Source of the DNA: a virus
DNA length: 43,071 bases
IMG/VR virus record: IMGVR_UViG_3300014489_000001
Coordinates: 64,001 to 107,071 of that record
Strand: one strand, 5' to 3'
Shown here in pieces: positions 251-43,071 of the stretch (positions are counted from its first letter, which is position 1; every line of letters begins with the position of its first letter). The position numbers were made by a program, and so were the translations under genes. The notes beneath the pieces were generated by a model. It did no database searches, was not told the origin of the DNA, and was given only the letters and a program-made list of their open reading frames with translations.

Positions 251-261
251 ATGTAGATTAT

Positions 262-333: not shown

Positions 334-339
334 CTGTAT

Positions 340-411: not shown

Positions 412-452
412 TTAGCGGTAGTTTCCACTTCATGGAGATGACGCCGCTTCGA

Positions 453-2800: not shown

Positions 2801-2814
2801 CTCTACCTCCTGGG

Positions 2815-17704: not shown

Positions 17705-18108
17705 TTTGGTACTCTCCGTTCGAGGTCTTCGACTTGCGAACGGAGAATTGTGTTAGCTGCTTTCAATTTTTCAATTTCGGCAGAATTTTCATTCTTCTCT
17801 GTTTGCAATGCAACAATCTGCTGTTTCATGTTCACGTTCTCCATCAACGTTGCGATATGTGCAGTCTGCATATCAAGAATGCGTTGCTGGACTTCCAGCA
17901 ACTTAGATTCAAGTTTGTTCGATTTGTCAATTTGATCTTGACTAAGTTGACGATAGTTTTTGACAATGAAATCGATGTCAGATTGGGATTGAACCGTTTT
18001 ATCCTTCTTACGGTTTGTGACCCACTCAGAAATCTTAGGCAGGAGAGCCCCTAAGCCAGTCATAACAGTCATCAACACGCCAACCCAAACTGGATGAATT
18101 GGTTCCAT
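17701..18108 (-). CDS. Membrane-anchored coiled-coil protein (135 aa)
   Basis: An N-terminal membrane segment (VWVGVLMTVMTGLGALL, residues about 7-23) is followed by a basic stretch (NRKKDK) and a coiled coil from about residue 45 to the end (LESKLLEVQQRILDMQ, IEKLKAANTILRSQVEDLE). The topology is like a spanin or a membrane anchor. The start at 18108 follows the stop of the adaptor gene by two bases and has a GAGAG ribosome site; a longer upstream start would overlap that gene. It may be a lysis or membrane-interaction protein embedded in the neck cluster. Confidence 0.68.
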   Translation of the reverse strand: MEPIHPVWVGVLMTVMTGLGALLPKISEWVTNRKKDKTVQSQSDIDFIVKNYRQLSQDQIDKSNKLESKLLEVQQRILDMQTAHIATLMENVNMKQQIVALQTEKNENSAEIEKLKAANTILRSQVEDLERRVPK

Positions 18109-18110
18109 TT

Positions 18111-18764: not shown

Positions 18765-20858
18765 TTAGTTAATCCTCACACCTTCAAAATCAAGTTCGAC
18801 CGAATACCACTCACCACATGGAGGCGTTCCATGTTTTTCAGCAACCAAATCAACAGGGTCAGTGAGGAAATTTACATTCCACATTTCACCCTTCCAATTG
18901 GTCATGTTGACTCGTTGAGTAAGATTCTGCAACAAAAATACTCTAAGTTCATAAGCTTTCTTGCGAGTGATTATGAACTTGTATTTCAATTTTCTTGAAG
19001 CATTCTTTCGAACATAGGTGTATATGTCGCCAGTAATGGTTCTAAGAATCTTGATAGCACTTACAGGTGCTTCTGCATCACCTAACTCTGGGTTAGGTAA
19101 TACGATTGTTGAAAACCTACCAACGATTGTTGTCGACCTACCAGGCACTGGACAACATATGCCACCACCCTGGCCACCCATCGTATAGATGAGGTTTGAT
19201 ATGACAAGAAAGCCACCTGTACCATCAGGTATATGATGTTCAGGGAAGAACATCAAAGTGCTTGTCACACTTCGCACAAGATTCAAAGCAACACTAACGC
19301 TATGAGTTAGCGTCAAACTCTGACTTATATGTCTGCTCTTGAAAGCGGCATGAACTACAGCTTGAGCTACCGTCAAACTTTGATTTATGCCAGTCCTTGC
19401 AAGTGCAGTTGTAGTCTGAATTACGACAAGTGGTTGCGTTATCGTCCTATGCAAAAGCTTCTGACTATGCACAGTCTGTGCAATTGTCAAAGACTCACTT
19501 GGGCTTCGCGGCCTAATCAGTGGTGCAGATACCGTCTGAGTAAGTGTCAAACTTTCAGACGAACCATCACTATGCGGGTCATAAGCTGTAACCAAAGTTT
19601 GAGTAATCGTCAAACTTTGAAAGAAGCCAGACGACTGAGTCTCAGTTGCAGATTGCGTAATCGTCAACGACTGATTGATACTTCTCGGCTTGAACTGGAA
19701 GTAATCAGCAACACTTATGAGACTGAGACTATTCGAAGCACTGTGACCGAATGTACTCCCAGATCGACTGAGAGTTTCTGTAATCGACAGACTTTGACTG
19801 GCCTTTTGATTCGGAGTTTTATAGATAGCACTTTGAGTAATGGTCAAAGTGTTACTAGCTAATTCGTCTCCTACCTCAATGGCATTCTGAGTAATCGTTA
19901 ATGTCTGAGTGACACTACGATTAAACACACCCGCTCTGACGACAGATTCTGAAATTGCTAATGCGTCAGTGTCAGTGCGATGGAATGCACCTATTCTGAC
20001 AACAGATTCTGCAACCGTTAATGCGTCAGTTGTTGTTCTTGGTTCAGTTATCAGTCGTACAGCAGATTCTGCAACTGCTAATGCGTCAGTTGCAGTAAGA
20101 CTGAAAAGACTGCTAACGCTAAAGAAGTCGTACTTCTTTGGCTTCTGCCGTAGATTCCAGCGAGTTGCTGGATTCCACATGTTCGTTACAACATTTTGTG
20201 GCAATGCGTAATTGTAGATTCTTGGGTCATCCATGTGCCCAATGAACCAATCACCTGTGTTAGATCCATCCGACAATGCACCGAAATATACCTGGCTTGC
20301 ATTCGTTCCAATGTTGCCAGTTACGCCAAGTGTGGCATCAAGCTGACCATCAACATAAATCTTAGTGTTTACACCATCGTAGGTGCAAATAACAAGATGC
20401 CATTTTCCGTCAATAACATTGATGCTGCCTACGAGTTCATTACCAGCCTGGTAGGCATTGTTTGTAGAGATCAACCAGTGCAGATGGCCTGTGGTTGCCT
20501 CGGCGTATATTGACCAAGAATCATTTACAACACCCCACATTGCTGCAAGGTATTGAATTCTTGATGTGGCGGTTGAATTAACCCAAAAAGTTACAGATAT
20601 TGCATCAGTTCCTTGCAGCAATCCTGACGAGCTAACTAAGTGTGTATAGCTCGTTGCACCGTCATATGTAAGTGCAGTTTGCCCACCATCTACACCAAAG
20701 ACCCAAGAAGGTGTATCTAAAGGAAATATCTGTCCAACATCGCCACTGCCGGAGAAATCATACAAGTTACCGGAACCGAAACCACCAGGCCCCCAGAAAA
20801 CTAATCCTGGTGCCTGGACACTATTTCGATTCAACCTAAATGGAAATAGTGGTTTCAT
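18765..20858 (-). CDS. Fibre-like protein: LamG domain plus 20-residue repeats (697 aa)
   Basis: Residues about 55-235 are a LamG/concanavalin-like jellyroll (DAISVTFWVNS, KWHLVICTYDGVNTKIYVDG, DWFIGHMDDPRIYNYAL), a fold that usually binds carbohydrate. Residues about 250-540 hold some 14 repeats of about 20 residues: first TTDALTVAESVVR types, then SQSLTITQSA types. The final 150 residues form a beta domain (WKGEMWNVNFLTDP, GEWYSVELDFEGV) related to the end of the 293-aa tail protein. This is most likely an adsorption fibre or tail-side appendage. Its location among head and neck genes is unusual. Confidence 0.82.
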   Translation of the reverse strand: MKPLFPFRLNRNSVQAPGLVFWGPGGFGSGNLYDFSGSGDVGQIFPLDTPSWVFGVDGGQTALTYDGATSYTHLVSSSGLLQGTDAISVTFWVNSTATSRIQYLAAMWGVVNDSWSIYAEATTGHLHWLISTNNAYQAGNELVGSINVIDGKWHLVICTYDGVNTKIYVDGQLDATLGVTGNIGTNASQVYFGALSDGSNTGDWFIGHMDDPRIYNYALPQNVVTNMWNPATRWNLRQKPKKYDFFSVSSLFSLTATDALAVAESAVRLITEPRTTTDALTVAESVVRIGAFHRTDTDALAISESVVRAGVFNRSVTQTLTITQNAIEVGDELASNTLTITQSAIYKTPNQKASQSLSITETLSRSGSTFGHSASNSLSLISVADYFQFKPRSINQSLTITQSATETQSSGFFQSLTITQTLVTAYDPHSDGSSESLTLTQTVSAPLIRPRSPSESLTIAQTVHSQKLLHRTITQPLVVIQTTTALARTGINQSLTVAQAVVHAAFKSRHISQSLTLTHSVSVALNLVRSVTSTLMFFPEHHIPDGTGGFLVISNLIYTMGGQGGGICCPVPGRSTTIVGRFSTIVLPNPELGDAEAPVSAIKILRTITGDIYTYVRKNASRKLKYKFIITRKKAYELRVFLLQNLTQRVNMTNWKGEMWNVNFLTDPVDLVAEKHGTPPCGEWYSVELDFEGVRIN

Positions 20859-22939: not shown

Positions 22940-22946
22940 ATCTGAG

Positions 22947-23020
22947 TCGCGGGAGCAGGATTCGAACCTGCGTCGGACGGCTTATGAGACCGTGCTGGGA
23001 CCTCTCCAGTCGATCCCGCG
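22947..23020 (-). tRNA. tRNA with CAU anticodon (Met or Ile2), inside the structural operon
   Basis: A complete cloverleaf is present on the minus strand: acceptor cgcggga/tcccgcg, D stem ctgg/ccag, anticodon stem acggt/gccgt with loop ctcataa (CAU), and T arm gcagg / ttcgaat / cctgc. The discriminator is A and no CCA is encoded. The first pair C1-G72 is formed, so it is not a bacterial initiator type. Elongator Met or lysidine-modified Ile2 cannot be told apart. It is transcribed in the same direction as, and just after, the capsid gene. Confidence 0.9.
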
Positions 23021-27201: not shown

Positions 27202-27474
27202 TCAGACAGAAAAGTAACTAACACTGTCACCATTGTTCAATGCGATAAAGAACAAGTCCATAGTTACAGTTTTGTCGGCTGGAACGAAGGTTGTTTCACT
27301 TGGATACAATATGTATCCATTACTACTACTTACATCCGAACCGCCCATGTAAATAGGGCCTGTATTGTTCTTATCGGCTTTAACTTGGATGCCGATTAAA
27401 AACATGTCAACAACGAGTTGTGTCTTTGAAACATTGCTTAAAGCAACATTTCTACCTAAAAATCTAAACCCCAT
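27202..27474 (-). CDS. Small phage virion-type protein (90 aa)
   Basis: The pattern NNTGPIYMGGSDVSSSNGYIL, then a short loop, then TMDLFFIALNNGDSVSYFSV is a small beta-sandwich plan common among phage proteins encoded near tail-fibre or capsid genes. It overlaps the end of the repeat protein by 19 bases in another frame and precedes the portal gene by 17 bases. It probably forms a virion accessory; the exact role is unknown. Confidence 0.7.
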   Translation of the reverse strand: MGFRFLGRNVALSNVSKTQLVVDMFLIGIQVKADKNNTGPIYMGGSDVSSSNGYILYPSETTFVPADKTVTMDLFFIALNNGDSVSYFSV

Positions 27475-28793
27475 GGGTATATTCCAAGTATGTAAAGAGT
27501 CATAAAACTGTTGCTGACAAGAGCAGCATTTGGACCATTACCAATTGCAATGTCTGATTGAGACAAACTGTCTGTTGTAATTCTATTACCAACAAACAAT
27601 CTTATGACAGATTCAGACATTCCCAATGATTCTGTTGCAAAAACAGTATAGTGCCCTGAGACAATGCTTGTGTCAATAACTTCTGATTCAGTCAACGAAT
27701 CAGAACTAACACGTTGGCCGTCGAAGATTCTTACAACTGATTCACTAATGCCTGGAGTGTTGTGAGTTGTTCTAAAACCAACAAACAATCGAGCTACAAC
27801 CTCAATAACAAGCAAAGAATCAGTAGCACCACGGTAAGCACCAAAACCCTCAGACATTGATTCGGAATCAGATAAAGAATCCGTAGTAACCCTCAATAGG
27901 TGACTACTTTTAGTTGCCGATTCTGATAACGACAATGAATCATCTGGCGTTCTCAGACCAACAAAGACTCTTGAAACTGATTCAGACAATCCTAGATGTT
28001 CAGTTGTTGAGCGAATACCAACCAACATCCTATGAACACTTTCCGAATCAGTTAGTGAATCAGTTGCAGTTCGATATAAACCAACGATTCCGATTACTGA
28101 TTCTGAAAGTGTTAAAGCATCGGTAGCTGCACAAATTAGACTTTGTCCAGAAGATGCAGATTGAGTGTTACTAAGGGCATCAGTAGTTGTACGGTGACAA
28201 ACCAGTATCCTACTGGCAATTTCAGAATCATGCAGATTATCTGTCGATGTTCTATGACCAACAAATAATCTTGTCACTACTTGTGAAACTGTCAAGGAAT
28301 CAGTTGGACTTCTGATTGCAATCAAAGTCTTTCTTAAAGACTCAGCAATCGTTAACGAGTCTGTTGTCGTTCTCAATGCAGCTAAGATTCTCTTCAAAGA
28401 TTCAGCTAAAGCCAATGCATCAGTTGCCGTTCTATGGGCAACCAATGATCTCGATACAACTTGTGCTGATGTTGGTGCATCAGTTGTTGTTCTATGTGCG
28501 ACCAATAATCGTTTTACTGATTGAGCGATTGCAGTTGCATCTGTAGCAGTTCTCAATGCGAGTAGAATTCTACTCACTGATTGAGAATCCGAAAGAGCAT
28601 CAGTTGTTGTTCGATGACCAACAAATACCCTATGTACTACTTGAGAATTTGAAAGAGCATCTGTTGTTGTTCTGTGTGAAACTATTGTTCTTGTTACTGA
28701 TTCAGAAATAGTTGGTGCATCTGTTGCCGTTAATCCTATTGGCAGTAAAGATGTATCTGAAAACGGCAGATCAGAAAATGCACCATCCGTCAT
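27456..28793 (-). CDS. Protein made almost wholly of 20-residue repeats (445 aa)
   Basis: About 20 tandem units of 20 residues run from residue ~10 to ~425, with consensus about R-T-T-T-D-A-L-(S/T)-x-S-E-S-V-x-R-(I/L)-(L/F)-V-(G/A)-H (examples: RTTTDALSDSQSVSRILLAL and RTATDALALAESLKRILAAL). The DNA repeats every 60 bases. The regular T-D-(A/S)-L and S-V-x-R-hydrophobic spacing suggests a solenoid or fibrous beta structure, such as a fibre shaft. The last 20 residues (SFMTLYILGIYPWGLDF) are hydrophobic. AGAGG before the ATG supports the start. There is no signal peptide. Related repeats occur in two other proteins here. Confidence 0.75.
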   Translation of the reverse strand: MTDGAFSDLPFSDTSLLPIGLTATDAPTISESVTRTIVSHRTTTDALSNSQVVHRVFVGHRTTTDALSDSQSVSRILLALRTATDATAIAQSVKRLLVAHRTTTDAPTSAQVVSRSLVAHRTATDALALAESLKRILAALRTTTDSLTIAESLRKTLIAIRSPTDSLTVSQVVTRLFVGHRTSTDNLHDSEIASRILVCHRTTTDALSNTQSASSGQSLICAATDALTLSESVIGIVGLYRTATDSLTDSESVHRMLVGIRSTTEHLGLSESVSRVFVGLRTPDDSLSLSESATKSSHLLRVTTDSLSDSESMSEGFGAYRGATDSLLVIEVVARLFVGFRTTHNTPGISESVVRIFDGQRVSSDSLTESEVIDTSIVSGHYTVFATESLGMSESVIRLFVGNRITTDSLSQSDIAIGNGPNAALVSNSFMTLYILGIYPWGLDF

Positions 28794-28794: not shown

Positions 28795-29097
28795 TTAACC
28801 TCTTAAAGCTGCTAATGCTTTTATTGCATCCGCTTTAATAATGCCTTGAACTTTCATTTTCTCGTCCGTCGTCAAAGAAGCCCAAGTTGCCGGCGATGCT
28901 TGAATTGCCAATGCTGCTTGCAGAGTCAATTCTTTAACTTGTACGGCTAAACGATTAACTGAATCATGAATATATGGTCCTTGTTTTCCTGGCATAGCAA
29001 CGAGTTCGACATCTATCGAACCGTCAGTCCATAGTCGTGGTTCTGCGACATGTTGAATGTCTGTTAATCGTCCATTCAGAAGTTTGCCGTAAATCAT
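28795..29097 (-). CDS. Small protein downstream of a fibre gene (100 aa)
   Basis: The family is not recognised. It starts MIYGKLLNGRLTDIQHV, has a short beta part, and ends with helices (VKELTLQAALAIQASPATW, MKVQGIIKADAIKALAAL). It overlaps the stop of the 488-aa fibre-like gene by four bases and has GGAG five bases upstream of its ATG. Position directly after a fibre-type gene is where tail-fibre assembly or attachment proteins are often found; that is inference. Confidence 0.62.
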   Translation of the reverse strand: MIYGKLLNGRLTDIQHVAEPRLWTDGSIDVELVAMPGKQGPYIHDSVNRLAVQVKELTLQAALAIQASPATWASLTTDEKMKVQGIIKADAIKALAALRG

Positions 29098-30560
29098 AAC
29101 GACTCCACATAGCCACCTATGTAAACATCTCCACTACCGCCACTTACAAGGTAATCCAAATACTGAGCACCATCGCAACTAACAAAACTCTGTGTGCCTG
29201 TTGAAGCACCAAAAGTAGGACGAGTAGTTGCTGTATTTCCAGCTGCACGTTTACGTAAATATGTAAAATCGGTAGTAGAAGCTGATGAAATTTCAGCAAT
29301 AACTTCTGTAGCTGTCGGTGGTACCCATGCATGACATCCTAAATTAGTCCACCCTGTTTGAGTTCCTCCATTTAATGCCACTGTATTGGTTGTTGAATCT
29401 TCAAACGCATAAGTCCGATCAATGCTTAATCCAGCTTGATCGAACCAAACAACCTGAGCAGAAGTATTAAGACGAACAGAACCGATTCGACGTATACTTA
29501 TTGCATAGCCAGTTAATCCGTATGGAGTTGTGCGTTGTGTTGACCAATAAGCAGTGGTACCAGAAGTTCCTGACGCAATGAAAACATAAAGATAAATCGG
29601 TGAGTTGAGGCCGCTAACCGAACACAACTGACCAATCGTATATGTTTTGCCACTGAGTGTTCCGAATGTAGCTACTGCACTTAGAGACGTATCAGTGATA
29701 ATCTTCAATACGGGAAGAGGACCGCCACCTGTAGCAACACTTATTGAAGGTTGCTCAATACAGTTGGGTGTCTGTCCTGTGAAAGCCGTTCCAGGTGTAG
29801 CACCTATGGTCAAAGCCGTATCAGATGCAATTGCAGTGATAGCATAATAACCTAAAGATGCTGTACCGATTAAATCGTTGACAGCAAATTCACTCATGAA
29901 TTTGGTGCCAGTACCAGTTACAGCAGTAGAACTGCTAGTAATCGTTCCAGTACAAGTACGCACACCAAATGATGTGGTGAATGTAGTGCTTGATCCTGTA
30001 GCGACTGCACCAGATGTGCTTACTGTTCCAGGACCAGTAAAAGAATCATCACCAAGAGCAGCACCAACATTAGCACTGCTAATCGTATAAGTGGTACCAC
30101 CAACTACTGAGATAGCGGCTGCACCATTTGAATCCACGCACATTGAAGTTGGAGAATTCTTATTAGGAAATCCAACCATAACAGTGGTTGTACTAATCCA
30201 ACTTAACGGTAACCCATAAATAAATCCACGTTCAGTCATTGCAAGTTGAGCAGGAAGTGAAAGAAATACATTGGTATGGCTACCAAGTGTAATCGCAGTA
30301 CCCGCTCCACTGCTTCCTGCTACGACTGTATTTCGTGTAAGTGTAGTTCCAGATAAGGTGTATGTCCCAATACCGACTTCCCAATTGCCAGTCGGATTAC
30401 CGTTGGAATCTACAGAAACAAGAGTATAATAGCAAGTGTTACCATTACCAACCACACCGAAGGATTGGTAACCTAACACTGCTCCAGCTAGTGTAATCGT
30501 GCCCGTACCAGTAGTAATGGTAGTTTCACGAACACGATCATACCAAACTGGAGTAGTCAT
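29094..30560 (-). CDS. Tail-fibre-type protein (488 aa)
   Basis: The first ~110 residues (YDRVRETTITTGTGTITLAG, GYQSFGVVGNGNTCYYTLVS, WEVGIGTYTLSGTTLTRNTV) form a module very common at the start of phage tail-fibre or appendage proteins. The remainder is beta-rich and Gly/Thr/Ser-rich, with a C-terminal segment (LNGGTQTGWTNLGCHAWVPP, DGAQYLDYLVSGGSGDVYIGGYVESL) that could be a tip domain. It overlaps both neighbours by four bases. It is likely a receptor-interaction protein encoded between terminase and portal. Confidence 0.78.
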   Translation of the reverse strand: MTTPVWYDRVRETTITTGTGTITLAGAVLGYQSFGVVGNGNTCYYTLVSVDSNGNPTGNWEVGIGTYTLSGTTLTRNTVVAGSSGAGTAITLGSHTNVFLSLPAQLAMTERGFIYGLPLSWISTTTVMVGFPNKNSPTSMCVDSNGAAAISVVGGTTYTISSANVGAALGDDSFTGPGTVSTSGAVATGSSTTFTTSFGVRTCTGTITSSSTAVTGTGTKFMSEFAVNDLIGTASLGYYAITAIASDTALTIGATPGTAFTGQTPNCIEQPSISVATGGGPLPVLKIITDTSLSAVATFGTLSGKTYTIGQLCSVSGLNSPIYLYVFIASGTSGTTAYWSTQRTTPYGLTGYAISIRRIGSVRLNTSAQVVWFDQAGLSIDRTYAFEDSTTNTVALNGGTQTGWTNLGCHAWVPPTATEVIAEISSASTTDFTYLRKRAAGNTATTRPTFGASTGTQSFVSCDGAQYLDYLVSGGSGDVYIGGYVESL

Positions 30561-31735: not shown

Positions 31736-33421
31736 CTAAACAGGTACGCTGGACATGTTCTGTGACTGCCCCACATTGAACGCAAATGGCAGAGCAATCT
31801 CTGCATAGTTACGTGCATGTGCCAAGTGGTCTTCGTCTCGTTCCTTCTTGACATACTTGCCAACAGGATTACCGTCCTGATCTTTTTCATACACACGCAC
31901 CAAAGCTTTTAGGTGCATGATATATTCAAGATCAGTATCAATAGGAAGATCAATGCGTTGAGCCTTGATACGACCTAATGACATATCCAGCCAAGATGTA
32001 CGGTCCACCGTAATCGTCGGCTCGGATGTATTCATTGTACCATCATCGTTTTTACCGACGTGGATTTGCTTACCTTGAACACCACGACCATAGAAGCACA
32101 TCTTGACGTAACCCCAGAATCTCGATGCGAACTCAAAAGCCTTTCGGCGTTCAGGATTAGCGTCGATAACACAGAAGTTAACGCGCCATTGTCGCATCAA
32201 TACATCAAGTTCTTCAAATGTAAACACTTTGCCCATCGTAATGACGCGGCAATATGATTCCATGTTGAGGTCGTTCTTGACATAGGGCGGTGGTTGCCAC
32301 ATGTCAATTTCGTAGTGAATCCATTTACCAACGTCAACACCCATCGTGACAACATTGGTAACTTTTGTTTCACACTTTTTGTAGTTCTTGAAACAAGCTT
32401 TAATCATTTCATCAGAAAGCTTGGCTCCAGCTACAGTGTGGGCTAATCCGCCCTTAGAGTTCCAGTATTCTTGCTCATCAGCAGGGTTGAATTCTGCCTT
32501 AATCGCCGCTTGTGCCAACTGATATGGCGTTACTGTCGGCGAGTATTGCTGATGGATGTAGAATCCACGCTCTTCTCGGTCGGTGTAGCTCTTGACCCAC
32601 ATGCCACTTGCAAGCCACTCGAACTTAGTCTTATGTTCAAGCTTAGCTTTGCATTGCAAGCAAATCAAGTGTGAGTTTTTCAAGTCAGGATCAAACAGGT
32701 CTTTACCTGTGATCACCAATGACTTAGGAAACTCAAGTTCAACCATCCGGCTACAACTAGGACACTTGAAAAAGAAGTGTTCCTGTGTCGTCAAGCCGTA
32801 CAAATCGTCGATACCAAATGTCGGTATCGTTGGTGTACTAATCGCCCAAGCTGACTTAGTCAACTGGCCAGACTGTCGTTCCATAGCCAACGGGATGTTC
32901 TTTTCCACCATCTCGTCGACTTCGTCCATCACTAAGAATCCGACTGGAATGGACTTGAGTTGAGATCGACTTTTACTTCCTCGGATGTATAAGTTAGTTG
33001 GCCCAGCTCGCTTATGCCCAATGTTCTTGACATCGGAGAACATATTGGAAAGGTGCGGCGATAATTCGAGGGCAGGGTCAAATCGTCCGGTACTAAAATC
33101 GGAGGCATCGGGAGTCTTCGAGGGAAGTACATAAAGACAATCCACCCTTTCAATGTCGATTTTAAAGAATGTGAGGTTCAATACACATTCAGTATAACCC
33201 ATCTGAGCCGACTTCTTACCCACATTGAAGTCCGCCGTGGAATCATGCATCTCCCTAAGCCAAGGATGATGCTTGAATCGCCACGGTCCTGGGAAGTCCT
33301 TGCCTCCCAGGATTCGGTACTTCTCAGCCCATTGAGATGGAGTAGTGATTGCTTTCCTACCCAAACCGGCAGCTATCCGTTCCGCCATCTCACGGACAAG
33401 ATTGTGAGTAAATTTAGACAT
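31736..33421 (-). CDS. Terminase large subunit, GpA type (561 aa)
   Basis: This is the DNA-packaging motor. An atypical Walker A of GpA-type terminases is seen at residues 68-78 (GKKSAQMGYTE) and Walker B at 163-170 (LVMDEVDE). A CxxC...CxxC zinc knuckle lies at residues 220-257. The nuclease domain starts near GVDVGKWIHYEID (D363) and includes VIDANPERR and a C-terminal DEDHLAHARNY. Length fits the family. The start overlaps the preceding gene by eight bases. GpA-type motors are found with several packaging modes, so the mode cannot be inferred. Confidence 0.95.
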   Translation of the reverse strand: MSKFTHNLVREMAERIAAGLGRKAITTPSQWAEKYRILGGKDFPGPWRFKHHPWLREMHDSTADFNVGKKSAQMGYTECVLNLTFFKIDIERVDCLYVLPSKTPDASDFSTGRFDPALELSPHLSNMFSDVKNIGHKRAGPTNLYIRGSKSRSQLKSIPVGFLVMDEVDEMVEKNIPLAMERQSGQLTKSAWAISTPTIPTFGIDDLYGLTTQEHFFFKCPSCSRMVELEFPKSLVITGKDLFDPDLKNSHLICLQCKAKLEHKTKFEWLASGMWVKSYTDREERGFYIHQQYSPTVTPYQLAQAAIKAEFNPADEQEYWNSKGGLAHTVAGAKLSDEMIKACFKNYKKCETKVTNVVTMGVDVGKWIHYEIDMWQPPPYVKNDLNMESYCRVITMGKVFTFEELDVLMRQWRVNFCVIDANPERRKAFEFASRFWGYVKMCFYGRGVQGKQIHVGKNDDGTMNTSEPTITVDRTSWLDMSLGRIKAQRIDLPIDTDLEYIMHLKALVRVYEKDQDGNPVGKYVKKERDEDHLAHARNYAEIALPFAFNVGQSQNMSSVPV

Positions 33422-33968
33422 TTATAGGCTCAGCTAAGGTGTTCACTTCCGTGATGCTCTTCAAGATGCGTTCCGATACTCCCTGTATCTTATCAGGAGG
33501 ACAAACCTCACCAATAATTTGAATAATCACATCACCGAGCATCATCACAGTAGATTTGTCAAGCAAGGAACCGGTTGACAATTCAAGTTTGTGGCAACTC
33601 GCAACAACTTTCTCAATCTTCATTGCCAGGTCGGCAATCTTGTTTGAGTAAAGAAGTAGCTCATTATCACTTTTACAGAGATTAACTGTCTTCTCCAGTA
33701 GCATACGGAGAATGCCAATCTCTTCTCGGAGCGATTTTACTGAATCATTATCAGCCAGTTGGTTAACACGATGCTGATAAACATTGAGTTGGTAATTGCG
33801 TAAGGCTGTTTTCTCAGCCACCTTGTTGCCGATGCCAAAATGTATCCTGCAAAACTTCTGGCCTTCAACGGCTTTAAGATTGCAAGCTCCATTTTTATTG
33901 ACACCTTGACAACATTTAGGGTCGTCAGGCTCACAACGCTCATACACAGATGCTTCTTCTACTGACAT
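33414..33968 (-). CDS. Putative terminase small subunit (184 aa)
   Basis: The gene directly precedes and overlaps the large terminase gene. The N-terminus has a Cys-His motif (CCQGVNKNGACNLKAVEG, then FCRIHFG) that resembles the C-x-G-x-x-C...C-x-x-H zinc motif seen in some small terminase subunits and other phage DNA-binding proteins. The rest is helical (residues about 60-130 coiled coil), consistent with oligomerisation. It overlaps the end of the glycosyltransferase gene by ten bases. The assignment rests on position and the motif. Confidence 0.6.
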   Translation of the reverse strand: MSVEEASVYERCEPDDPKCCQGVNKNGACNLKAVEGQKFCRIHFGIGNKVAEKTALRNYQLNVYQHRVNQLADNDSVKSLREEIGILRMLLEKTVNLCKSDNELLLYSNKIADLAMKIEKVVASCHKLELSTGSLLDKSTVMMLGDVIIQIIGEVCPPDKIQGVSERILKSITEVNTLAEPINV

Positions 33969-34808: not shown

Positions 34809-35417
34809 TTACTCAGCTTCTAAAGCCTTCTTTATGTTCTTAGCATGTACGCTAAATCCTAATCCATTCTGTTGAGTGGCCACATTGATGCCAAGTAACT
34901 CACCGTTGATATTGAACAACGGGCCACCGGAGTTACCAGGATTGATGCAAGCACTGGTTTGAATCAAACCGTGAAGCGTTATGGCTGTCAGTTCCATATC
35001 ACGGTCAAGGCCACTGACGATACCGGTCGTTACCGAATTTTTCTGACTATAAGGATGACCAATAGCGATTGCGACCTCGCCAATGAGCGGGTCGAGGCAC
35101 AATTTTACTGGTTTTAGCTCGATTTTGACCCTCACAAGAGCCAAATCGTAGTTAGGATCGTCGAAAATCACTTGGCCATCGACGATTTTGCCGTCATTTG
35201 TGTATATTTGTACGGTTGAGTATGCCATTACAACGTGACTTGCAGTTGCAATCACGTCTTTACTGACAGCGATTCCTGTTCCTCGTGCTCGTTTTCCGAT
35301 TTTCACTGCAACAACGCTATCGTAAGTGTCTTTATACACTTTCGATACATCTGTGCTGCGTTCAGCGGCACAAACTGGAAAAACAAGCACGAAGAACAGG
35401 AATAATCGCTTCATCAT
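34809..35417 (-). CDS. Secreted trypsin-like serine protease, HtrA/DegP type without PDZ (202 aa)
   Basis: A signal peptide (MMKRLFLFFVLVFPVCAA) is followed by a complete chymotrypsin-fold catalytic domain with the triad at H61 (ATASHVV), D91 (NYDLALVR) and S163 (NPGNSGGPLF). The GTGIAVSKDVIATASHV region and the N-P-G-N-S-G-G-P motif are those of the HtrA/DegP group, but there is no PDZ domain. It should act in the periplasm or outside the cell, in lysis, envelope damage or processing. The ATG overlaps the previous stop (TGATG); a GTG one codon upstream or an ATG one codon downstream are alternatives. Confidence 0.9.
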   Translation of the reverse strand: MMKRLFLFFVLVFPVCAAERSTDVSKVYKDTYDSVVAVKIGKRARGTGIAVSKDVIATASHVVMAYSTVQIYTNDGKIVDGQVIFDDPNYDLALVRVKIELKPVKLCLDPLIGEVAIAIGHPYSQKNSVTTGIVSGLDRDMELTAITLHGLIQTSACINPGNSGGPLFNINGELLGINVATQQNGLGFSVHAKNIKKALEAE

Positions 35418-36709
35418 CACACCTTTGCATTAGCATTGATGTGGCCAGCGTAGCCATTCTTGTGGCTATAGAGGAATGCTTGTGCAGCCCTCATGCCGCC
35501 CACATAGCCCTTTTTGAAATGCCACGAATCAGTTCCACACAAACTCGGTAGAACACGCACCAAGACGCCATCAATAGTCTCGGCAGAAGAATAATGAGTC
35601 TCTTTCACTTTGTGATAGTGACCAATCTTCCACTCTCGGTGTTTAGTTCGTGCCCAAGCTTGCGGCCAAGCACCAGCCATAATCGCTGGTAAGGAAGCAT
35701 GTTTTTCTTCATTGCCGTGAGTGTATGCAAGTAGGTTCACACCATACTCAACATGTTTTCTCGGCATTTCGGTCGCATCAATCGTGACATGAGGCGTCTG
35801 CCGATAATGCGCTTCAAGAACTTTGATTAGATACCAAGAGGTATTCCAATCGTGATTACCTGGAACCCACAAAACATCTACAGGTGCGATACCCATCAAC
35901 AGGTCGATAAGATTAATAAGAGCTTTCTGGCCTGTTGAAAAGATCTTGGCTAGACGACCATCAACATCTTGTGGCGTCCCGGCTGTTGTCATGTTTGCAG
36001 GGCCATCAATATGGAAGAAATCCTGCCCAATCGGGAGAACAATCTTCTCAATATTGAAGTTTCGTGATTTTTCAATCAACTCGTGGGCCGCGTCACTAAA
36101 GATTCGCTCAGCGATCTTCAAATCGTAATTCTCGCCTGTTTCGCGGCCCCAAGCGAGTTTACCAAAATGATGATCCCAGATGCTTACTTCAAGCATATAA
36201 GGATCAACGTGATGCTCAAATTTATGCGGCTCATATTTGTGAGCAGGAATCTGAGCAAGGAAGAGCTTGACGCCCTCCTCAATCATCTTCGGTACTTTGC
36301 GGCGAAGCCAAATCTTGACTTGCCATAATTCCACGGCAGCCAATTGGCGTTTCCAATGGTTGTGGTGTACTTTTTGTGACTCGACACGGCCAACGCAATC
36401 CCACTTGTTGATCATGTGTTCCTTAACTTCCCAGATTGATAAATCGACCTGAGCAGTTTTGAGAGCATCAGCAATAGTCCGAATAGTCGAACTCTTGCTG
36501 GTGATTACGACAGCATCTTCGGTTTCCGTTTGTTCAAAACCCTCTTCGGTCGGTTCATTGTCAGTTTGATTACCAAGTGTTCGCCACTTGCAATCAATCT
36601 GAACTTTGGTTCGGCCCATACGTTCGGCGATGTCTTTTGATGTCAAGTCTTGCTGTTTGAGCAGTTTCAGTGTATCTTCTTCGGACGCAGACCAAGCCTT
36701 ACCGGCCAT
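35417..36709 (-). CDS. Metallophosphoesterase with N-terminal helix-turn-helix (430 aa)
   Basis: Residues 1-45 (MAGKAWSASEEDTLKLLKQQ, SKDIAERMGRTKVQIDCKW) look like a Myb/SANT- or HTH-type DNA-binding module, followed by a linker. The C-terminal part has the calcineurin-type metal motifs: DHHFGK (179-184), GQDFFH (228-233), GNHDW (284-288), HGN (331) and GHYH (363-366). It is a two-metal phosphodiesterase or phosphatase, possibly acting on nucleic acid because of the N-terminal domain. GGAGG precedes the ATG. It is unrelated in sequence detail to the second metallophosphoesterase at 38236-39174. Confidence 0.87.
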   Translation of the reverse strand: MAGKAWSASEEDTLKLLKQQDLTSKDIAERMGRTKVQIDCKWRTLGNQTDNEPTEEGFEQTETEDAVVITSKSSTIRTIADALKTAQVDLSIWEVKEHMINKWDCVGRVESQKVHHNHWKRQLAAVELWQVKIWLRRKVPKMIEEGVKLFLAQIPAHKYEPHKFEHHVDPYMLEVSIWDHHFGKLAWGRETGENYDLKIAERIFSDAAHELIEKSRNFNIEKIVLPIGQDFFHIDGPANMTTAGTPQDVDGRLAKIFSTGQKALINLIDLLMGIAPVDVLWVPGNHDWNTSWYLIKVLEAHYRQTPHVTIDATEMPRKHVEYGVNLLAYTHGNEEKHASLPAIMAGAWPQAWARTKHREWKIGHYHKVKETHYSSAETIDGVLVRVLPSLCGTDSWHFKKGYVGGMRAAQAFLYSHKNGYAGHINANAKV

Positions 36710-36744
36710 ACGAAATCCTCCAACTGAGGAAAGAGTTAATTACA

Positions 36745-37308
36745 TCACTCTGAGCCGCCCCAAATTCTACCTGTTGGGCATTTTGGGCACTCAAACCACC
36801 CAGGCGTCAAAGGATAGAGAGTATGAAGGATACCCATACGAATCCTTTCTTGGCTCGTATAGACATTAAAATCAACACGAACCAACTTGCCATTCTTTGG
36901 AACACCGACGATGTATCCAGGTTTTTCACCTTGGATAGCTTTTACTTGGACAACTCGCCAAGGTGTGTTGACCAAGTGAGTGACACCAGCAACCTCAATG
37001 ATTACTGGTTGTCCATCCTCGATAGCCTTGGCATAGATTGCTTCCAAATCCATTGGATGGTTACAATCTTTGCATACACAAGTTCCAGTTGTAACGCAAC
37101 CACAAACACATTTAGCGTTTGGATTACCTTCATTGCAGTTCTTACAGGTACATTTCCCTGTAGCAGTGCAACTGCATTTACAACCAGAATCGAGAGAAAC
37201 TTCCGCAAAGGCGAAAGCAGCTTTCGCCTTTGCGGACATTGAACTCTCACCGTGTACGACGATTACTGCACTAAGCAGTATGATCAATACTCCGATGAAA
37301 CGAGTCAT
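36745..37308 (-). CDS. Secreted Cys-rich protein with two CxCxC modules (187 aa)
   Basis: A signal peptide (MTRFIGVLIILLSAVIVVHG) precedes SAKAKAAFAFAEVSL and two homologous Cys-rich modules: CKCSCTATGKCTCKNCN and CVCGCVTTGTCVCKDCN. The spacing of the six cysteines per module suggests metal binding of metallothionein type or dense disulfides. The C-terminal half is a different, beta-rich domain ending in FECPKCPTGR. AAGGAG upstream supports the start. The AKAKAAFAFA stretch next to Cys-rich sequence resembles, from memory, secreted planctomycete proteins. It could coat, bind metal, or interact with a Cys-rich host wall. Confidence 0.75.
   Translation of the reverse strand: MTRFIGVLIILLSAVIVVHGESSMSAKAKAAFAFAEVSLDSGCKCSCTATGKCTCKNCNEGNPNAKCVCGCVTTGTCVCKDCNHPMDLEAIYAKAIEDGQPVIIEVAGVTHLVNTPWRVVQVKAIQGEKPGYIVGVPKNGKLVRVDFNVYTSQERIRMGILHTLYPLTPGWFECPKCPTGRIWGGSE
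37203..37235. repeat. 33-base near-perfect palindrome inside the Cys-rich gene
   Basis: Two 16-base arms (ccgcaaaggcgaaagc and its exact complement) flank a single base. It lies in the coding sequence just after the signal peptide (AKAKAAFAFAE). It would form a strong mRNA hairpin and explains why the opposite strand shows a similar-looking peptide. Confidence 0.85.
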
Positions 37309-37317
37309 TGGCGCTCC

Positions 37318-37623
37318 TTACGCAGCCGGCGCAGGAACCGGCGTTGGGAAGAACAGGGCGAGCAACGCGGCGATAACGCCAGGCCACAAAGCCGTGTTAC
37401 TGAAAGCCGCGAAGATTTGAGGAATCATCGCGAACAGAGCAGCCCACGGAATCGTAGGCAGCGTAATGGCCTTTGGCGACATCTTCTTGGCCAAAGCGAT
37501 CACATCATTGATAACTTCGAGGACCGTGGCCTGGGCGCCAGGATCATAGCCGACCATCGCACCGGCGAGGGCTTCGTGGTGTTCAACGGGAACATTGTTT
37601 TGAGCAATGAACTTGGAAATCAT
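37318..37623 (-). CDS. Holin candidate (101 aa)
   Basis: The C-terminal half has two hydrophobic segments, about residues 58-76 (LPTIPWAALFAMIPQIFAAF) and 80-95 (WPGVIAALLALFF), with a Pro-rich tail (PTPVPAPAA). The N-terminal half (HEALAGAMVGYDPGAQATVL) is soluble. AAGGTG upstream of the ATG at 37623 fixes the start. Size, two membrane segments and neighbourhood (secreted proteins, proteases) suit a class II-type holin, but no sequence hallmark proves it. Confidence 0.58.
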   Translation of the reverse strand: MISKFIAQNNVPVEHHEALAGAMVGYDPGAQATVLEVINDVIALAKKMSPKAITLPTIPWAALFAMIPQIFAAFSNTALWPGVIAALLALFFPTPVPAPAA

Positions 37624-37635
37624 GGTAGTCACCTT

Positions 37636-37812
37636 TCACTTTTTGTGGAAACCCATAAGGGTTTTCCTGAGGTTGCATCGTTTCTGAGTCAATGGACTCA
37701 GTTTGCCAGAAGAACACAATTCTCCTGGCGTTTTACCTTGAGCCTTGGCGGTAGCTGTTAGAGAACCAGGATTCTCAATCGCTTTGCCAATGAACTTTTT
37801 CTTTGGTTTCAT
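37636..37812 (-). CDS. Small basic protein (58 aa)
   Basis: The sequence KKKFIGKAIENPGSLTATAK followed by GELCSSGKLSPLTQKRCNLRKTL is a recurrent phage small-protein type (KxFIxKAI-x-PGxLTxTAK...RCNLAKTL), found in virion or DNA-associated contexts. It is strongly basic and so may bind DNA. GGAG nine bases upstream supports the ATG at 37812, which overlaps the previous stop (ATGA). Confidence 0.68.
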   Translation of the reverse strand: MKPKKKFIGKAIENPGSLTATAKAQGKTPGELCSSGKLSPLTQKRCNLRKTLMGFHKK

Positions 37813-37964
37813 TCCGGTTTCTCCGGAAACATTGCGTGATGATCCGTTGTGGTCAAGTCCATGCAACCACATTCGGGGCATACATCAATGTCAGCGGTAG
37901 TGATTGGATCGGCCGTTACTTGCGGCACACCCTCTGAATTAATTGAGAGGAATGATTCATTCAT
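37809..37964 (-). CDS. Small Cys-containing protein (51 aa)
   Basis: The gene is tightly framed: its ATG overlaps the upstream gene's TAA (TAATG at 37964) and its TGA overlaps the downstream start (ATGA). This double overlap strongly supports translation. The product (MNESFLSINSEGVPQVTADP ... VCPECGCMDLTTTDHH ... FPEKPE) has a CPxCxC motif and a HH that may bind a metal. The family is unknown. Confidence 0.68.
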   Translation of the reverse strand: MNESFLSINSEGVPQVTADPITTADIDVCPECGCMDLTTTDHHAMFPEKPE

Positions 37965-38236
37965 TAGTTGTGCGCCGTTGCGTTAGGGTCGTCATATGGT
38001 TCGGCCGGGTCAGGCAGATCATCGAAGAAGAAACTCCGATGAACGTTCTTGTTTGCCGTCTTCTCCGTCTCGAAGATATTGGCTTGATTCGGCGTATGGA
38101 TAACCATTTGGCCGTTGCGATTGAAATTCGCATCAGGCTCAACTTCTTTCCGTACTGCCGGCAAGTCATTGAACTTGACGTTGTACTGATTCATCGGATG
38201 CTCAGCACCCGGCGAATATGCTTGGTCTTCATTCAT
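37964..38236 (-). CDS. Small acidic hydrophilic protein (90 aa)
   Basis: The sequence is polar and probably flexible (EDQAYSPGAEHPMNQYNVKF, KTANKNVHRSFFFDDLPDP), with no signal peptide, membrane segment or recognised domain. It overlaps neighbours on both sides by one base (TGATG at its start, TAATG at its end), so it belongs to a translationally coupled chain from the metallophosphoesterase to the 58-aa gene. Function unknown. Confidence 0.65.
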   Translation of the reverse strand: MNEDQAYSPGAEHPMNQYNVKFNDLPAVRKEVEPDANFNRNGQMVIHTPNQANIFETEKTANKNVHRSFFFDDLPDPAEPYDDPNATAHN

Positions 38237-39174
38237 CAGAATGTCTCCGCAAAGAGAATGTGATTATTCTCGTCAAAGTAACGCACAGTTACGTTAGCTT
38301 TGTTGATATCCATAATGGCGAATGAATGGTAATAGCGAATGCCATCATTACCATAAGTAATCGGTTCACAAGGAATCTTACTAACAAAGTAATTCTCCCT
38401 GAGCAATTCTGGTACACCACCAGCACCAACTGTACGCATCCGTTTGATGCCCATATAATCATGGTAGACAGCTAGTCGATGTTCATGACCCGTGAACCAA
38501 GCCGCCACACAATCAAGATTACCAAGCTGATTTGCAACAATGTTGTTAACATCTTGGAATCCTGAAAACGGTTGATGATGGCTCAATAGAATCGTTTTAC
38601 GATTCAAAAGATTCTTAACCCAGAGAGCTTCTTCTGGATGAAGATGAACTGGTCCTTTATTGAATCTGTCACTCCAACCAGTATTCATGCCAATAAGTTG
38701 GATGAATTTATTGCCGAGCGTAAAGTGGCAACTGTGTTGGCCAATCATGTCTGTAGCGTAGTAATAACCAGTACCGCCAGAGTAGGCGTCATGATTACCC
38801 ATCAATGTGAACCACTTCGTTTCTGGTATTTCCATCAAGAGCGGCTGCAAGAATCGTCGATCAACTTCATTCTTCGTTCCTGAGTAATAGATGTCACCCA
38901 AGTGCATGAAGTAATCGGGTTTGTATGTTCTAATCTGGCTGAGAACATTTTCTGCACTCTCAGTCCCGGTGCCCCAATCGCCAACAATTGCAAGAGAACA
39001 TGACTCCGGGAGTGTGAACACTCCCGGAGCTAGACGGTAAAGTGCCTCAACGTTGAACAGATACGCAAATAGAGTTTTAGCCCACCCCAAATCGAGTTTG
39101 GAGAATTTGAAGTCATCTTGGATTGACATCAAAATGGACTTAAAACGACTACGTATCGGAGTGAAGAGACCCAT
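38236..39174 (-). CDS. Metallophosphoesterase, purple-acid-phosphatase-like (312 aa)
   Basis: All calcineurin-type metal motifs are present: GDWGTG (D66), HLGDIYYSG (GD at 93-94), GNHDAYSGG (126-129), LSHHQPFSG (198-200) and TGHEHRL (229-232). The GDWG start and spacing resemble purple acid phosphatase / metallophosphatase branches rather than the SbcD type. The first 50 residues are hydrophobic in part but not a clear signal. The substrate is unknown: phosphate scavenging, nucleotide or DNA-end hydrolysis are all possible. The gene overlaps the next gene by one base. Confidence 0.88.
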   Translation of the reverse strand: MGLFTPIRSRFKSILMSIQDDFKFSKLDLGWAKTLFAYLFNVEALYRLAPGVFTLPESCSLAIVGDWGTGTESAENVLSQIRTYKPDYFMHLGDIYYSGTKNEVDRRFLQPLLMEIPETKWFTLMGNHDAYSGGTGYYYATDMIGQHSCHFTLGNKFIQLIGMNTGWSDRFNKGPVHLHPEEALWVKNLLNRKTILLSHHQPFSGFQDVNNIVANQLGNLDCVAAWFTGHEHRLAVYHDYMGIKRMRTVGAGGVPELLRENYFVSKIPCEPITYGNDGIRYYHSFAIMDINKANVTVRYFDENNHILFAETF

Positions 39175-39176
39175 GA

Positions 39177-39401
39177 TTACGCCATCTTGTTAGGTTCTTT
39201 GGCTTGATCCCAAGTGTTACCCTGGGCCGTAGTGACAATCTTCACACCATTGTGCACAATGGTGCCTTGCATACCAGCGATGGCTGCATCGTAATCCATT
39301 TGTGGACCACCGCTACAGGCTTCCGGCAAAGGGCCAGAGCGGTTCTTCGACATGTCTTGGTTGCACCAAGTCTTGTCGGCGTAGCCGTTCATGAACTTCA
39401 T
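39177..39401 (-). CDS. Small protein with the shared N-terminal peptide (74 aa)
   Basis: It begins MKFMNGYADKTWC, one of the five copies of the shared N-terminal peptide, followed by NQDMSKNRSGPLPEACSG and a short beta-type C-terminus (QGTIVHNGVKIVTTAQ). GGAG about seven bases upstream and the ATGA overlap with the preceding gene support the ATG at 39401. It is small, probably soluble, and may be a virion or assembly accessory. Function unknown. Confidence 0.7.
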   Translation of the reverse strand: MKFMNGYADKTWCNQDMSKNRSGPLPEACSGGPQMDYDAAIAGMQGTIVHNGVKIVTTAQGNTWDQAKEPNKMA

Positions 39402-39697
39402 TTGATTTCTCCAGTAGCGGTACAAGAATCAACCATCATCCGGCCAACACCTGTCCGCCGCACTTTGGTGTCGGGGAATGTCAGTGTACCTGTAAACGTC
39501 CTGCCATCAATGATAATCGTAACGGCTCCGGTTACTTCCTTAGCAACCATGAACTGTCCTTCACGATGCACAGGTTCAGGTGGAATGATTACAGTAATCG
39601 TTCCACCTGTCCGGGCGGGCTGACCGTGAACTGGCATAATCGACAATCCGATTGTCAACACAACAATGCCAGCTAGATAGATCACCAGTCCTTTCAT
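39398..39697 (-). CDS. Small secreted protein (99 aa)
   Basis: The N-terminus (MKGLVIYLAGIVVLTIGLSI, ending near VHG) is a signal peptide or anchor. The mature part is beta-rich (GGTITVIIPPEPV, GAVTIIIDGRTFTGTLTF). GGAG upstream, directly after a hairpin with TTTT tail, supports the start. It overlaps the following 74-aa gene by four bases. Likely exported; function unknown. Confidence 0.68.
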   Translation of the reverse strand: MKGLVIYLAGIVVLTIGLSIMPVHGQPARTGGTITVIIPPEPVHREGQFMVAKEVTGAVTIIIDGRTFTGTLTFPDTKVRRTGVGRMMVDSCTATGEIK

Positions 39698-39712
39698 ACG
39701 TCATTACCCTCC

Positions 39713-39744
39713 AAAAGCCAGCGTGCCACAAAGGACACGCTGGC
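39713..39744 (-). terminator. Hairpin-TTTT element upstream of the 99-aa gene (hairpin A)
   Basis: Nine-bp arms (GCCAGCGTG at 39717-39725 and CACGCTGGC at 39736-39744) with a 10-base loop are followed on the minus strand by TTTT and then GGAGGGTAA, the ribosome site of the next gene. It closely matches the element at 40969-40999. Confidence 0.78.
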
Positions 39745-39752
39745 ATGAGTTG

Positions 39753-40697
39753 TTAAAACACCCAAGGAATCATGTCCGCAAGGAATCCGTCGAATGCGGA
39801 ATACGCGAACACTTCTTGCTGGTCGCAAATATACTGCATATCAGCTTTGCGAACCCAGAATCCACCGCCTGGAGCGCCGGAGGGGCAAATACCATGGCAT
39901 AACCAACCCCAGGAATTTTGAATCCAGAAGATTTCGCCAAGGTTTGGATGGTCCCAATATGCCGACACCGACATCTGGTGGTTCCATGTGGTTACTCTTC
40001 GATTGAGCAACACACCACTGGTAACACCTGGCGACATCTGTCCGCCCCAATTGGACGCACAGGTAACGCCATACTTGTTGACGAGAGCATCACGAACATC
40101 ATCCGTTGTACGCATCAAAGCAGTCGTCTTGACAGGGTGAAGCTTACCCTGAGTGACATACTGAGCGGGTGCACCATGGTCACCCCATGCACGATCGATT
40201 GCACCTGGCCAATTCAGTGTCTTGCCATCGTCATCATACGTGTACTTCTCAGCATTGACATCGAAGTCAATAGGAAGAACACCGTACTTGACTGCGGCTT
40301 CGGCACAACCAGAACCGGTGCCACCGTCGTCATTGTCACCATTGCTTCCAGTGATTCCTGCACACACGCGACCCATGGCATAGCCATAAGGTTCGTAAGG
40401 CATGACGAACTTCTGCGACGGATCGAGCAGAATCTGATTCAGCATCGTGTAGGCTTCGGTCTTGGCTTTGCCTTGACCAGTACACGAACCAACGTTTTGA
40501 TAGAAACAAGGCAGGTCTTTACCGAGGACGGAGCGAGCAGCGTCCCATAGACAAACCTTCTCAACCGCCTTGAAATTGCCCTTCATTCGGAAAGCGGGCA
40601 TAGAACCCATAATCCGATTATGTTGGTCATTTTGATCGGTAGACCGCTTATCAGGATGCAGCCAACCTGCTTCCAGGTGCTGTCCATCTTTGTACAT
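39753..40697 (-). CDS. Papain-like cysteine protease, C1 family (314 aa)
   Basis: The C1 active-site pattern is clear: Q67-N-V-G-S-C72 (oxyanion Gln and catalytic Cys), H240 in TTWNHQMSV, and N261 in WIQNSWGWL. Additional C1-type features include GSGCAEAAVKYGVLPI and the closing FWVRKADMQYICD. Gln and Cys are five residues apart, one fewer than in papain. No signal peptide or long propeptide is seen, and the enzyme domain starts within the first ~60 residues. Its TAATG overlap with the preceding gene shows coupled translation. Possible roles are capsid or scaffold processing, host protein degradation, or wall degradation. Confidence 0.9.
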   Translation of the reverse strand: MYKDGQHLEAGWLHPDKRSTDQNDQHNRIMGSMPAFRMKGNFKAVEKVCLWDAARSVLGKDLPCFYQNVGSCTGQGKAKTEAYTMLNQILLDPSQKFVMPYEPYGYAMGRVCAGITGSNGDNDDGGTGSGCAEAAVKYGVLPIDFDVNAEKYTYDDDGKTLNWPGAIDRAWGDHGAPAQYVTQGKLHPVKTTALMRTTDDVRDALVNKYGVTCASNWGGQMSPGVTSGVLLNRRVTTWNHQMSVSAYWDHPNLGEIFWIQNSWGWLCHGICPSGAPGGGFWVRKADMQYICDQQEVFAYSAFDGFLADMIPWVF

Positions 40698-40957
40698 TAT
40701 TGCAACTCCGGAAGTTCGACTGTCTTGCCAACCAGGGCATGTGTACAGTCATTGTGGTAAGTAATCTGACCATTGGTCAGGGTGAAGTGGCAACAATAGA
40801 TTACGTTGCCTTCATCAATAGCACGAATGTTGACACTTTTGTTAAGTGTCGGTGATTCAAAATTACCATTGAATACCCAACGTGCATCAACATTGTGTCG
40901 TTGATGGCAAGCTGGACATTGAAGCGTGTAACCGTCTCCGGCACGTTTGAATCGCAT
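40697..40957 (-). CDS. DUF6527-like small zinc protein (86 aa)
   Basis: The order LQCPACHQRHNV, RWVFNGNFESPTLNKSV, CCHFTLTNGQITYHNDCTHA, then VGKTVELP matches the DUF6527 group as I remember it (Cys-His pairs, xFNGxxxxPTxxxS, G-x-I-x-x-x-x-D-C-x-H). The Cys and His residues probably bind zinc. Members are frequent in phages and of unknown function. The start has GAGGG upstream, right after a hairpin with TTTT tail. Confidence 0.78.
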   Translation of the reverse strand: MRFKRAGDGYTLQCPACHQRHNVDARWVFNGNFESPTLNKSVNIRAIDEGNVIYCCHFTLTNGQITYHNDCTHALVGKTVELPELQ

Positions 40958-40968
40958 ATTTACCCTCT

Positions 40969-40999
40969 AAAAGCCATTGTGCCACAAGGACACAATGGC
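40969..40999 (-). terminator. Hairpin-TTTT element upstream of the DUF6527-like gene (hairpin B)
   Basis: Arms GCCATTGTG (40973-40981) and CACAATGGC (40991-40999) enclose a 9-base loop; the minus strand continues TTTTAGAGGGTAA into the ribosome site. Compared with the element at 39713-39744, the two differing stem positions change together so that pairing is kept, while loop and flanks are nearly the same. Confidence 0.78.
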
Positions 41000-41007
41000 A
41001 AAAGGTC

Positions 41008-41616
41008 TTATTTGACTTGCCTTAGCAGGACAGAGATTCGCTGTAACTGAGCGACGAGCTTCTCCCTGTCGAATGTACCAGTCGTGAATCCGGTCATCTC
41101 CGCCGCAATCAACTTCTGCATCTCGACCAGTTTGCCGTTGCATCCAAGCTTCTTGGCAACCTGACTAAAGACGGTTCCGAGTTGAGTGTACGTCGTGATG
41201 TCGGTTCGACCCTTGGCAAACGCAGCACCTTGATCGTAGAGTTCAATTAACTCTTCAAGATGTGTACCTTTGTCCTTGTCTGCATCGTAGGCCGATTGCA
41301 AACTCTTCAACAGATCGGTGGGTTGCGGAGGCAAATCTCCGATTACCACGACCCACGTCTTCATCTTGTCTTTGGCGTAACTGGCCACAACGTAGTAGGT
41401 ACCGTTTGTGTAACCAAGCAATCGGAGCTTGATCACTTTCACATCGTCGTTGTGTTCACGAATCAACTCACCATTGACTGGAGGGACAACTACCCAACCG
41501 AGGGCGTCGCCGATGGTGATTGTTGCCAACTTGCCTGCTGGCATTGTCACTGATTCCTGTCCAAACCCGATTCCGCTGAGGACAAAAAGAAGCAATGTTG
41601 CGAAGACTTTTTGCAC
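41008..41616 (-). CDS. Secreted protein (202 aa), first gene of the late operon
   Basis: A signal peptide (VFATLLLFVLSGIGFGQ) precedes a beta-type domain (GKLATITIGDALGWVVVPPV, TWVVVIGDLPP) and a helical C-terminal half (DLLKSLQSAYDADKD, LEELIELYDQGAAFAKG, KLVAQLQRISVLL). The PPQPTDLLKSLQSAYDAD-type junction resembles, from memory, a group of planctomycete secreted proteins. The start codon is GTG with GGGAG six bases upstream. Being the first gene after the divergent control region, it should be strongly expressed. Its function is unknown. Confidence 0.72.
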   Translation of the reverse strand: MQKVFATLLLFVLSGIGFGQESVTMPAGKLATITIGDALGWVVVPPVNGELIREHNDDVKVIKLRLLGYTNGTYYVVASYAKDKMKTWVVVIGDLPPQPTDLLKSLQSAYDADKDKGTHLEELIELYDQGAAFAKGRTDITTYTQLGTVFSQVAKKLGCNGKLVEMQKLIAAEMTGFTTGTFDREKLVAQLQRISVLLRQVK

Positions 41617-42957: not shown

Positions 42958-43071
42958 CGCCTGGCGTTCGGCCCCGCCTGCCAGGAGTCTACCGCCTGGC
43001 GTTCGGCCCCGCCTGCCAGGAGTCTACCGCCTGGCGTTCGGCCCCGCCTGCCAGGAGTCTACCGCCTGGCG
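42958..43071 (+). repeat. 35-bp tandem repeat array running off the window end
   Basis: Three complete copies of a 35-base unit (42958-42992, 42993-43027, 43028-43062) and nine bases of a fourth are identical. The unit starts cgcctggcgttcgg and contains a cctggc/gccagg inverted repeat. It shares CCGCCTGG with the terminator stem just before it. The window stops inside the array, so its true length is unknown. No spacers are present, so it is not a CRISPR array. Confidence 0.95.

Follow-up and report, generated by a model that had tools for sequence, protein, structure and literature searches.

A papain-like protease as candidate lytic enzyme in phages of planctomycetes

The stretch of DNA analysed here, called the window, has a length of 43,071 bases and comprises bases 64,001–107,071 of a 107,071-base IMG/VR virus record, which belongs to a tailed phage with a gpA-type terminase, a P22-like coat protein and a tape measure protein. 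One of its genes (39753–40697, minus strand) encodes a papain-like cysteine protease of the peptidase C1 type with 314 residues, and on the basis of its catalytic residues, its modelled fold and its conservation we consider it probable that this protein is the lytic enzyme of a lysis cassette and, in phages that infect planctomycetes of the Planctomycetia type, stands in for a classical endolysin. We draw this from the sequence, the fold, the conserved gene order and the distribution of the family, and from these we infer export in the window phage, lysis and the substrate. A preliminary description of the window had listed S53, trypsin-like and papain-like proteases and had proposed that they jointly form a lysis system for a protein wall; the idea survives in a narrowed form, with one protease instead of three. 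Because phages match their lytic enzymes to the wall that bears the load, a protease in the endolysin slot would be an independent witness in the forty-year dispute on protein or peptidoglycan as the basis of planctomycete walls, and also a ready-made test reagent. The papain-like family would supply a first marker for planctomycete phages, and, if true, proteolysis of a protein wall would mean that bacteria can be lysed independently of peptidoglycan cutting. A literature search found no published lysis enzyme of a planctomycete phage.

The papain-like protease and its cassette

The residues Gln67, Cys72, His240, Asn261 and Trp263 of the papain-like protein are all in place, and Q67, C72, H240 and N261 are invariant across seven phage homologues; in a wider alignment of 14 sequences, Gln, Cys and His are found in 14/14, and Asn is changed to Gln in three. 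With the AlphaFold model (predicted local distance difference test score, pLDDT, 79; predicted template modelling score, pTM, 0.85), a structure search gave C1 enzymes as top PDB matches, and the best was the bacterial C1 enzyme xylellain (3OIS; E 5e-8, probability 1.00), which has the same Gln/Cys/His/Asn machinery and fold. The Pfam scan of the window protein gave no match, and among the papain-like proteins of related phages there was a single sub-threshold match to PF00112 (in the relative termed G017, E 7e-4). The protein differs from C1 enzymes such as papain in that it stays below the curated PF00112 cut-off, in a Gln-to-Cys spacing that is one residue shorter than in papain, and in its setting in a lysis-type phage cassette. 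The family had no match among 50,697 annotated phage records. According to the model, the product is a predicted papain-fold, C1-type protease with full machinery.

Related phages were identified in IMG/VR by a search with the terminase large subunit (TerL), which gave 35 loci, and 20 relatives are compared here, eight large ones and twelve in part; gene calls are open reading frames, and export signals were judged by hydropathy. The papain-like gene recurs in G001–G004, G010, G012, G013 and G017. In G017 and G010, the gene order is terminase small subunit (TerS), holin-like protein, exported protein, papain-like protease, exported CxxC thioredoxin-fold protein, small tail-anchored protein, and TerL. 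A single family comprises the holin-like proteins found in G017, G010 and G004 and in a planctomycete prophage, and G013 encodes another member; the papain-like proteins of G010, G012 and G017 begin with a Tat-like signal (MLSRRDFLAAS type). Exported thioredoxin-fold proteins with CxxC motifs (WCPYCP, WCHYCP, YCGPC) adjoin the papain-like gene in viruses as well as in prophages. The window and G001–G003 retain the exported protein, the protease, and an exported Cys-rich protein. A placement next to a holin and near the terminase is seen in G010, G017 and several prophages, and the holin of the window is only a candidate. These cassettes resemble the holin–endolysin(–spanin) cassettes of tailed phages in their holin-like gene, the position of the lytic enzyme, the exported or lipoprotein partner and, in prophages, the adjacency to the terminase, but they differ in that the enzyme is a C1-type protease instead of a known peptidoglycan hydrolase and in the frequent extra exported thioredoxin-fold protein.

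The preliminary description had recognised no peptidoglycan hydrolase in the window and had considered that an endolysin could lie outside it. The first point was confirmed for the whole 107-kb record: in Pfam scans whose listed matches reach down to E about 0.01, no peptidoglycan-hydrolase family was among the matches listed for all main window proteins, and none was among those for the 93 predicted proteins of the left 64 kb, and an endolysin hidden in that part was therefore rejected. A hydrolase domain hidden in the tape measure or tail tip protein was likewise rejected, as Pfam gave none at E ≤ 1. Six-frame searches of the record with PF05708, PF11860 and PF00877 were negative, and profiles of peptidase C92 and NlpC/P60 matched in relatives only, so that a C92 enzyme in the record was rejected as well.

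Planctomycete genomes and the host wall

The preliminary description had linked the window to planctomycetes, and this link was strengthened by genome searches. A profile built from the phage papain-like proteins found homologues in 4/294 genomes of Planctomycetota and in 0/299 of Pseudomonadota, and a second profile that included four prophage members, and that is biased toward planctomycetes by its construction, found 14 loci in 13/392 Planctomycetota versus 0/398 Pseudomonadota (Fisher p 1e-4). Phage genes for head proteins, terminase or portal can be recognised beside nine or more of the 14 loci; the loci of G681 and G693 are without visible phage genes, and those of G178, G618 and G709 are uncertain. 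The terminases of the examined prophages belong to four or more unrelated groups besides the window type, and the papain-like gene therefore travels as a module. Its recurrent prophage neighbours are a holin-like or membrane protein and an exported lipoprotein, with a terminase nearby, and an exported thioredoxin-like protein, often downstream of the papain-like gene, joins the cassette in 7/13 genomes. In Pfam scans, the 123 proteins of the prophage stretches gave capsid, portal, terminase, Clp, thioredoxin and nuclease families, and no peptidoglycan hydrolase was among the matches listed (one set complete at 1e-4, the other the best 25 of 30 families, down to E 6e-7), with 10–40 kb scanned per prophage and the prophage ends not fixed. 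For two other family scans of this study, the matches listed reach down to E 5e-7 and 9e-6, respectively. A host assignment by a terminase scan of the genomes was dropped, as it mostly yielded unrelated gpA terminases.

YTV proteins are Cys-rich wall proteins of Planctomycetia (PMC8567305, PMC10632474). Most Planctomycetales are without peptidoglycan genes, and YTV proteins were top-scoring in a wall preparation (PMC8567305); Planctopirus limnophila requires a YTV gene and can dispense with most peptidoglycan genes (PMC10632474). We found YTV proteins in all 13 genomes that carry the papain-like gene and in two of 47 controls (p 2e-11), and MurC, scored as absent from genomes with no more than one weak match to Mur ligases, is missing in 5/13 versus 2/47 (p 0.004); the controls are genomes without the papain-like gene, many of them small or incomplete, and both counts are confounded by host phylogeny, with genomes that are not independent, because YTV marks one class and the phages follow classes. 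The counts place the cassette in YTV-walled planctomycetes, some of which are without a peptidoglycan pathway, and the substrate is not proved thereby.

Mode of action and alternative explanations

We propose that the papain-like protein and its exported partners would reach the periplasm by way of a holin-like membrane protein and/or export signals, and that the protease would cut wall material there. The most likely target would be the Cys-rich YTV protein wall, and the alternative target would be the peptide part of peptidoglycan; in many phages, the exported thioredoxin-fold protein would assist and could reduce disulfides, and the S53 and trypsin-like proteases would be accessory. The most specific form of this mechanism, in which the phages lyse YTV-walled planctomycetes by digesting a protein wall held together by disulfides, with the exported papain-like protease in place of an endolysin and the exported thioredoxin-fold protein opening the disulfides, is put forward tentatively, as a possibility that we would not yet call probable. 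Lysis by protein digestion, as suggested in the preliminary description, is plausible: it fits the papain-like gene in a lysis-type slot and the YTV proteins of all hosts, but several planctomycetes have peptidoglycan sacculi that are lysozyme-sensitive (PMC4432640), and a papain fold would also suit a peptidoglycan endopeptidase.

Besides these sacculi, the confounded host counts and the limited extent of the prophage scans, several observations weigh against the papain-like protein as a substitute for the endolysin. MurC is encoded in 8/13 of the genomes with the papain-like gene. The window phage and G001–G003 have no proven holin, their cassettes also lack the thioredoxin fold, and their papain-like proteins show no visible signal peptide. 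A peptidoglycan hydrolase domain, which the preliminary description had named as the finding that would refute its idea, was not recognised in the record of the window phage, but G007 encodes an N-acetylmuramidase (E 2e-52; G007:28996–29574) amid core genes and has no papain-like gene, and therefore endolysins are not absent throughout the clade. Papain-fold enzymes of the C92/NlpC-like kind are present in G001, G005 and G009, and by eye also in G011 and G016, and the slot may hold peptidoglycan peptidases. Members of the clade employ different wall enzymes in equivalent functional slots.

The alternative that survives best is that the papain-like protein represents a new family of peptidoglycan endopeptidases, that is, an ordinary endolysin of unrecognised sequence that cuts peptide cross-links, with no protein wall involved. 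The papain fold is common to NlpC/P60, CHAP, C39-like and Pei enzymes, the relatives substitute C92/NlpC-like enzymes or a muramidase, and most of the hosts retain MurC. PeiW and PeiP (C71) of methanogen viruses, which are mentioned in PMC12596118, are phage enzymes with a papain fold that open a wall not made of murein. Their likeness to the window protein is one of fold and function, and they act on another wall in another host domain. Mycobacteriophage LysA has papain/C39-type peptidase domains (PMC3314691), and the N4 and N5 domains resemble the window protein as papain/NlpC-type domains in a lysis enzyme, but they belong to peptidoglycan endolysins that combine several domains, binding domains among them, and the window protein has a single domain. 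However, the nearest folds are protein-cleaving C1 enzymes (xylellain, cathepsins), the cassette is also found in the five of 13 hosts without MurC, and the presence of the papain-like gene tracks YTV more closely than MurC. We therefore regard an endopeptidase of this kind as rather unlikely.

It is less likely still that the exported proteases act on the envelope during infection, for example in superinfection exclusion, receptor destruction, anti-defence or biofilm release, and that the true endolysin is an unassigned gene or lies outside the record. The trypsin-like and S53 genes differ in place and presence, many genes are without assignment, and the left part of the record contains two small papain-fold genes, either of whose products could be a lysin: one at record 5647–6132 (C39, E 0.0036; assigned by eye), and one in the early region at record 36592–37080, a core gene kept in 7/8 large relatives, whose protein has Cys, His and Asp invariant in eight aligned sequences and whose model weakly resembles C39, staphopain and PeiR. 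Nevertheless, in prophages the papain-like gene directly follows the holin-like and exported genes near the terminase, which is the classical lysis position and speaks for the papain-like protein as the lytic enzyme. That all three proteases form a single system for lysis or penetration of a protein wall is very improbable, for although all three are catalytically complete and the S53 gene ends the late operon, a frequent place of virion or lysis genes, the S53 protein has no counterpart in any relative or IMG/VR contig found, the genes are widely separated, and the conserved cassette requires the papain-like gene alone.

Further proteases, neighbouring genes and the record

The S53 (kumamolisin-like) serine-carboxyl protease (1808–2842, minus strand) matches kumamolisin over residues 31–334 (E 8e-48), with a complete Glu-Asp-Ser triad, oxyanion Asp and Ca site: E and D of DGEN...DIQ, D of SGDNGSTDGD, S of GGTSA, and the Ca-site motifs. 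It has neither an N-terminal prodomain nor a signal peptide, and the catalytic domain begins at residue 31. As a homologue was found in 0/20 relatives and none by a pattern scan of IMG/VR, the S53 protease was rejected as a common lysis part, and from these comparisons the gene appears specific to the window phage. The exported trypsin-like serine protease, which we regard as accessory (34809–35420, minus strand; 203 residues; Trypsin_2 E 1e-27), has a hydrophobic N-terminus and a complete His/Asp/Ser triad (TASHVV, YDLALV, GNSGGP). Exported trypsin-like proteins are present in G001, G009, G010, G016 and G017; their placement varies, the G001 copy lies elsewhere, and so does the gene in most relatives. 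The segment 34809–41616, for which the joint system had been suggested, takes in the trypsin-like and papain-like genes only, and the S53 gene falls outside it. In another relative, an exported protein with an HExxH-like stretch (LPHEVLHTVLASHF) is encoded upstream of TerS (G009:24719–26233) and resembles secreted planctomycete metalloproteases.

The upstream partner of the papain-like gene encodes an exported protein of 202 residues with a hydrophobic N-terminus (41008–41616, minus strand), with 43% identical homologues at the same place in G002 and G003; it has position −2 from the papain-like gene in the window and −1 in G002, and most other cassettes have an exported protein of different sequence at −1. 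In the window, a small DUF6527-type protein lies between the two (40697–40957, minus strand; PF20137 E 6.8e-5 in a set scan, assigned by eye), and it is not kept in the relatives compared. The exported Cys-rich protein (36745–37308, minus strand; 187 residues), which is 40–46% identical in G001–G003, has CxC/CxxC repeats and no Pfam match and occupies the place that is held by the exported thioredoxin-fold protein in other cassettes. Our holin candidate is a protein of 104 residues with a hydrophobic C-terminus (37318–37632, minus strand); it has no homologue and does not match the profile of the cassette holins, its assignment from sequence features is a guess, and a search for cassette holins across the record found none. 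An alternative holin-like candidate is a membrane-anchored coiled-coil protein in the head–tail region (17701–18132, minus strand) with weak holin-like PHROG/Pfam matches, and small membrane proteins are found at the equivalent position in G001, G009 and G005. A small exported protein of 99 residues (39398–39697, minus strand) has a hydrophobic N-terminus and no homologue in the relatives. The calcineurin-like metallophosphoesterase (38236–39174, minus strand; 312 residues; PF00149 E 9e-15) is probably outside the lysis set, and together with the exonuclease (35417–36709) it was considered and set aside as a non-lysis gene. TerL (31736–33421, minus strand; gpA type, PF05876/PF20454) is 43–80% identical to the relatives, and the TerS candidate immediately upstream (33414–33968, minus strand) is kept in 14/20.

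The 107-kb record may be a fragment. It closes (window 42958–43071) with a terminator and, behind this, a 35-base tandem repeat, CGCCTGGCGTTCGGCCCCGCCTGCCAGGAGTCTAC, in 3.3 perfect copies, beyond which the true end may be absent. In the structural region (window 4641–30560), three structural proteins (8327–9208, 18765–20858 and 27456–28793) have common short repeats of the type 'LTITQSA/TDALSDSES' at unrelated places, and a tRNA-Met gene (22946–23020) adjoins the coat gene on the opposite strand. Two tRNA clusters are present, one at window 103–412 with five tRNAs, one of them just left of the window, and one at record about 28,960–29,700 with seven. Left of the window, the RNA-repair-like families RlaP, TROVE/VWA (Ro60-like) and RNA ligase occur together in this one phage (record 476–1228, 23368–24330 and 38013–39242; families from set scans, genes assigned by eye).

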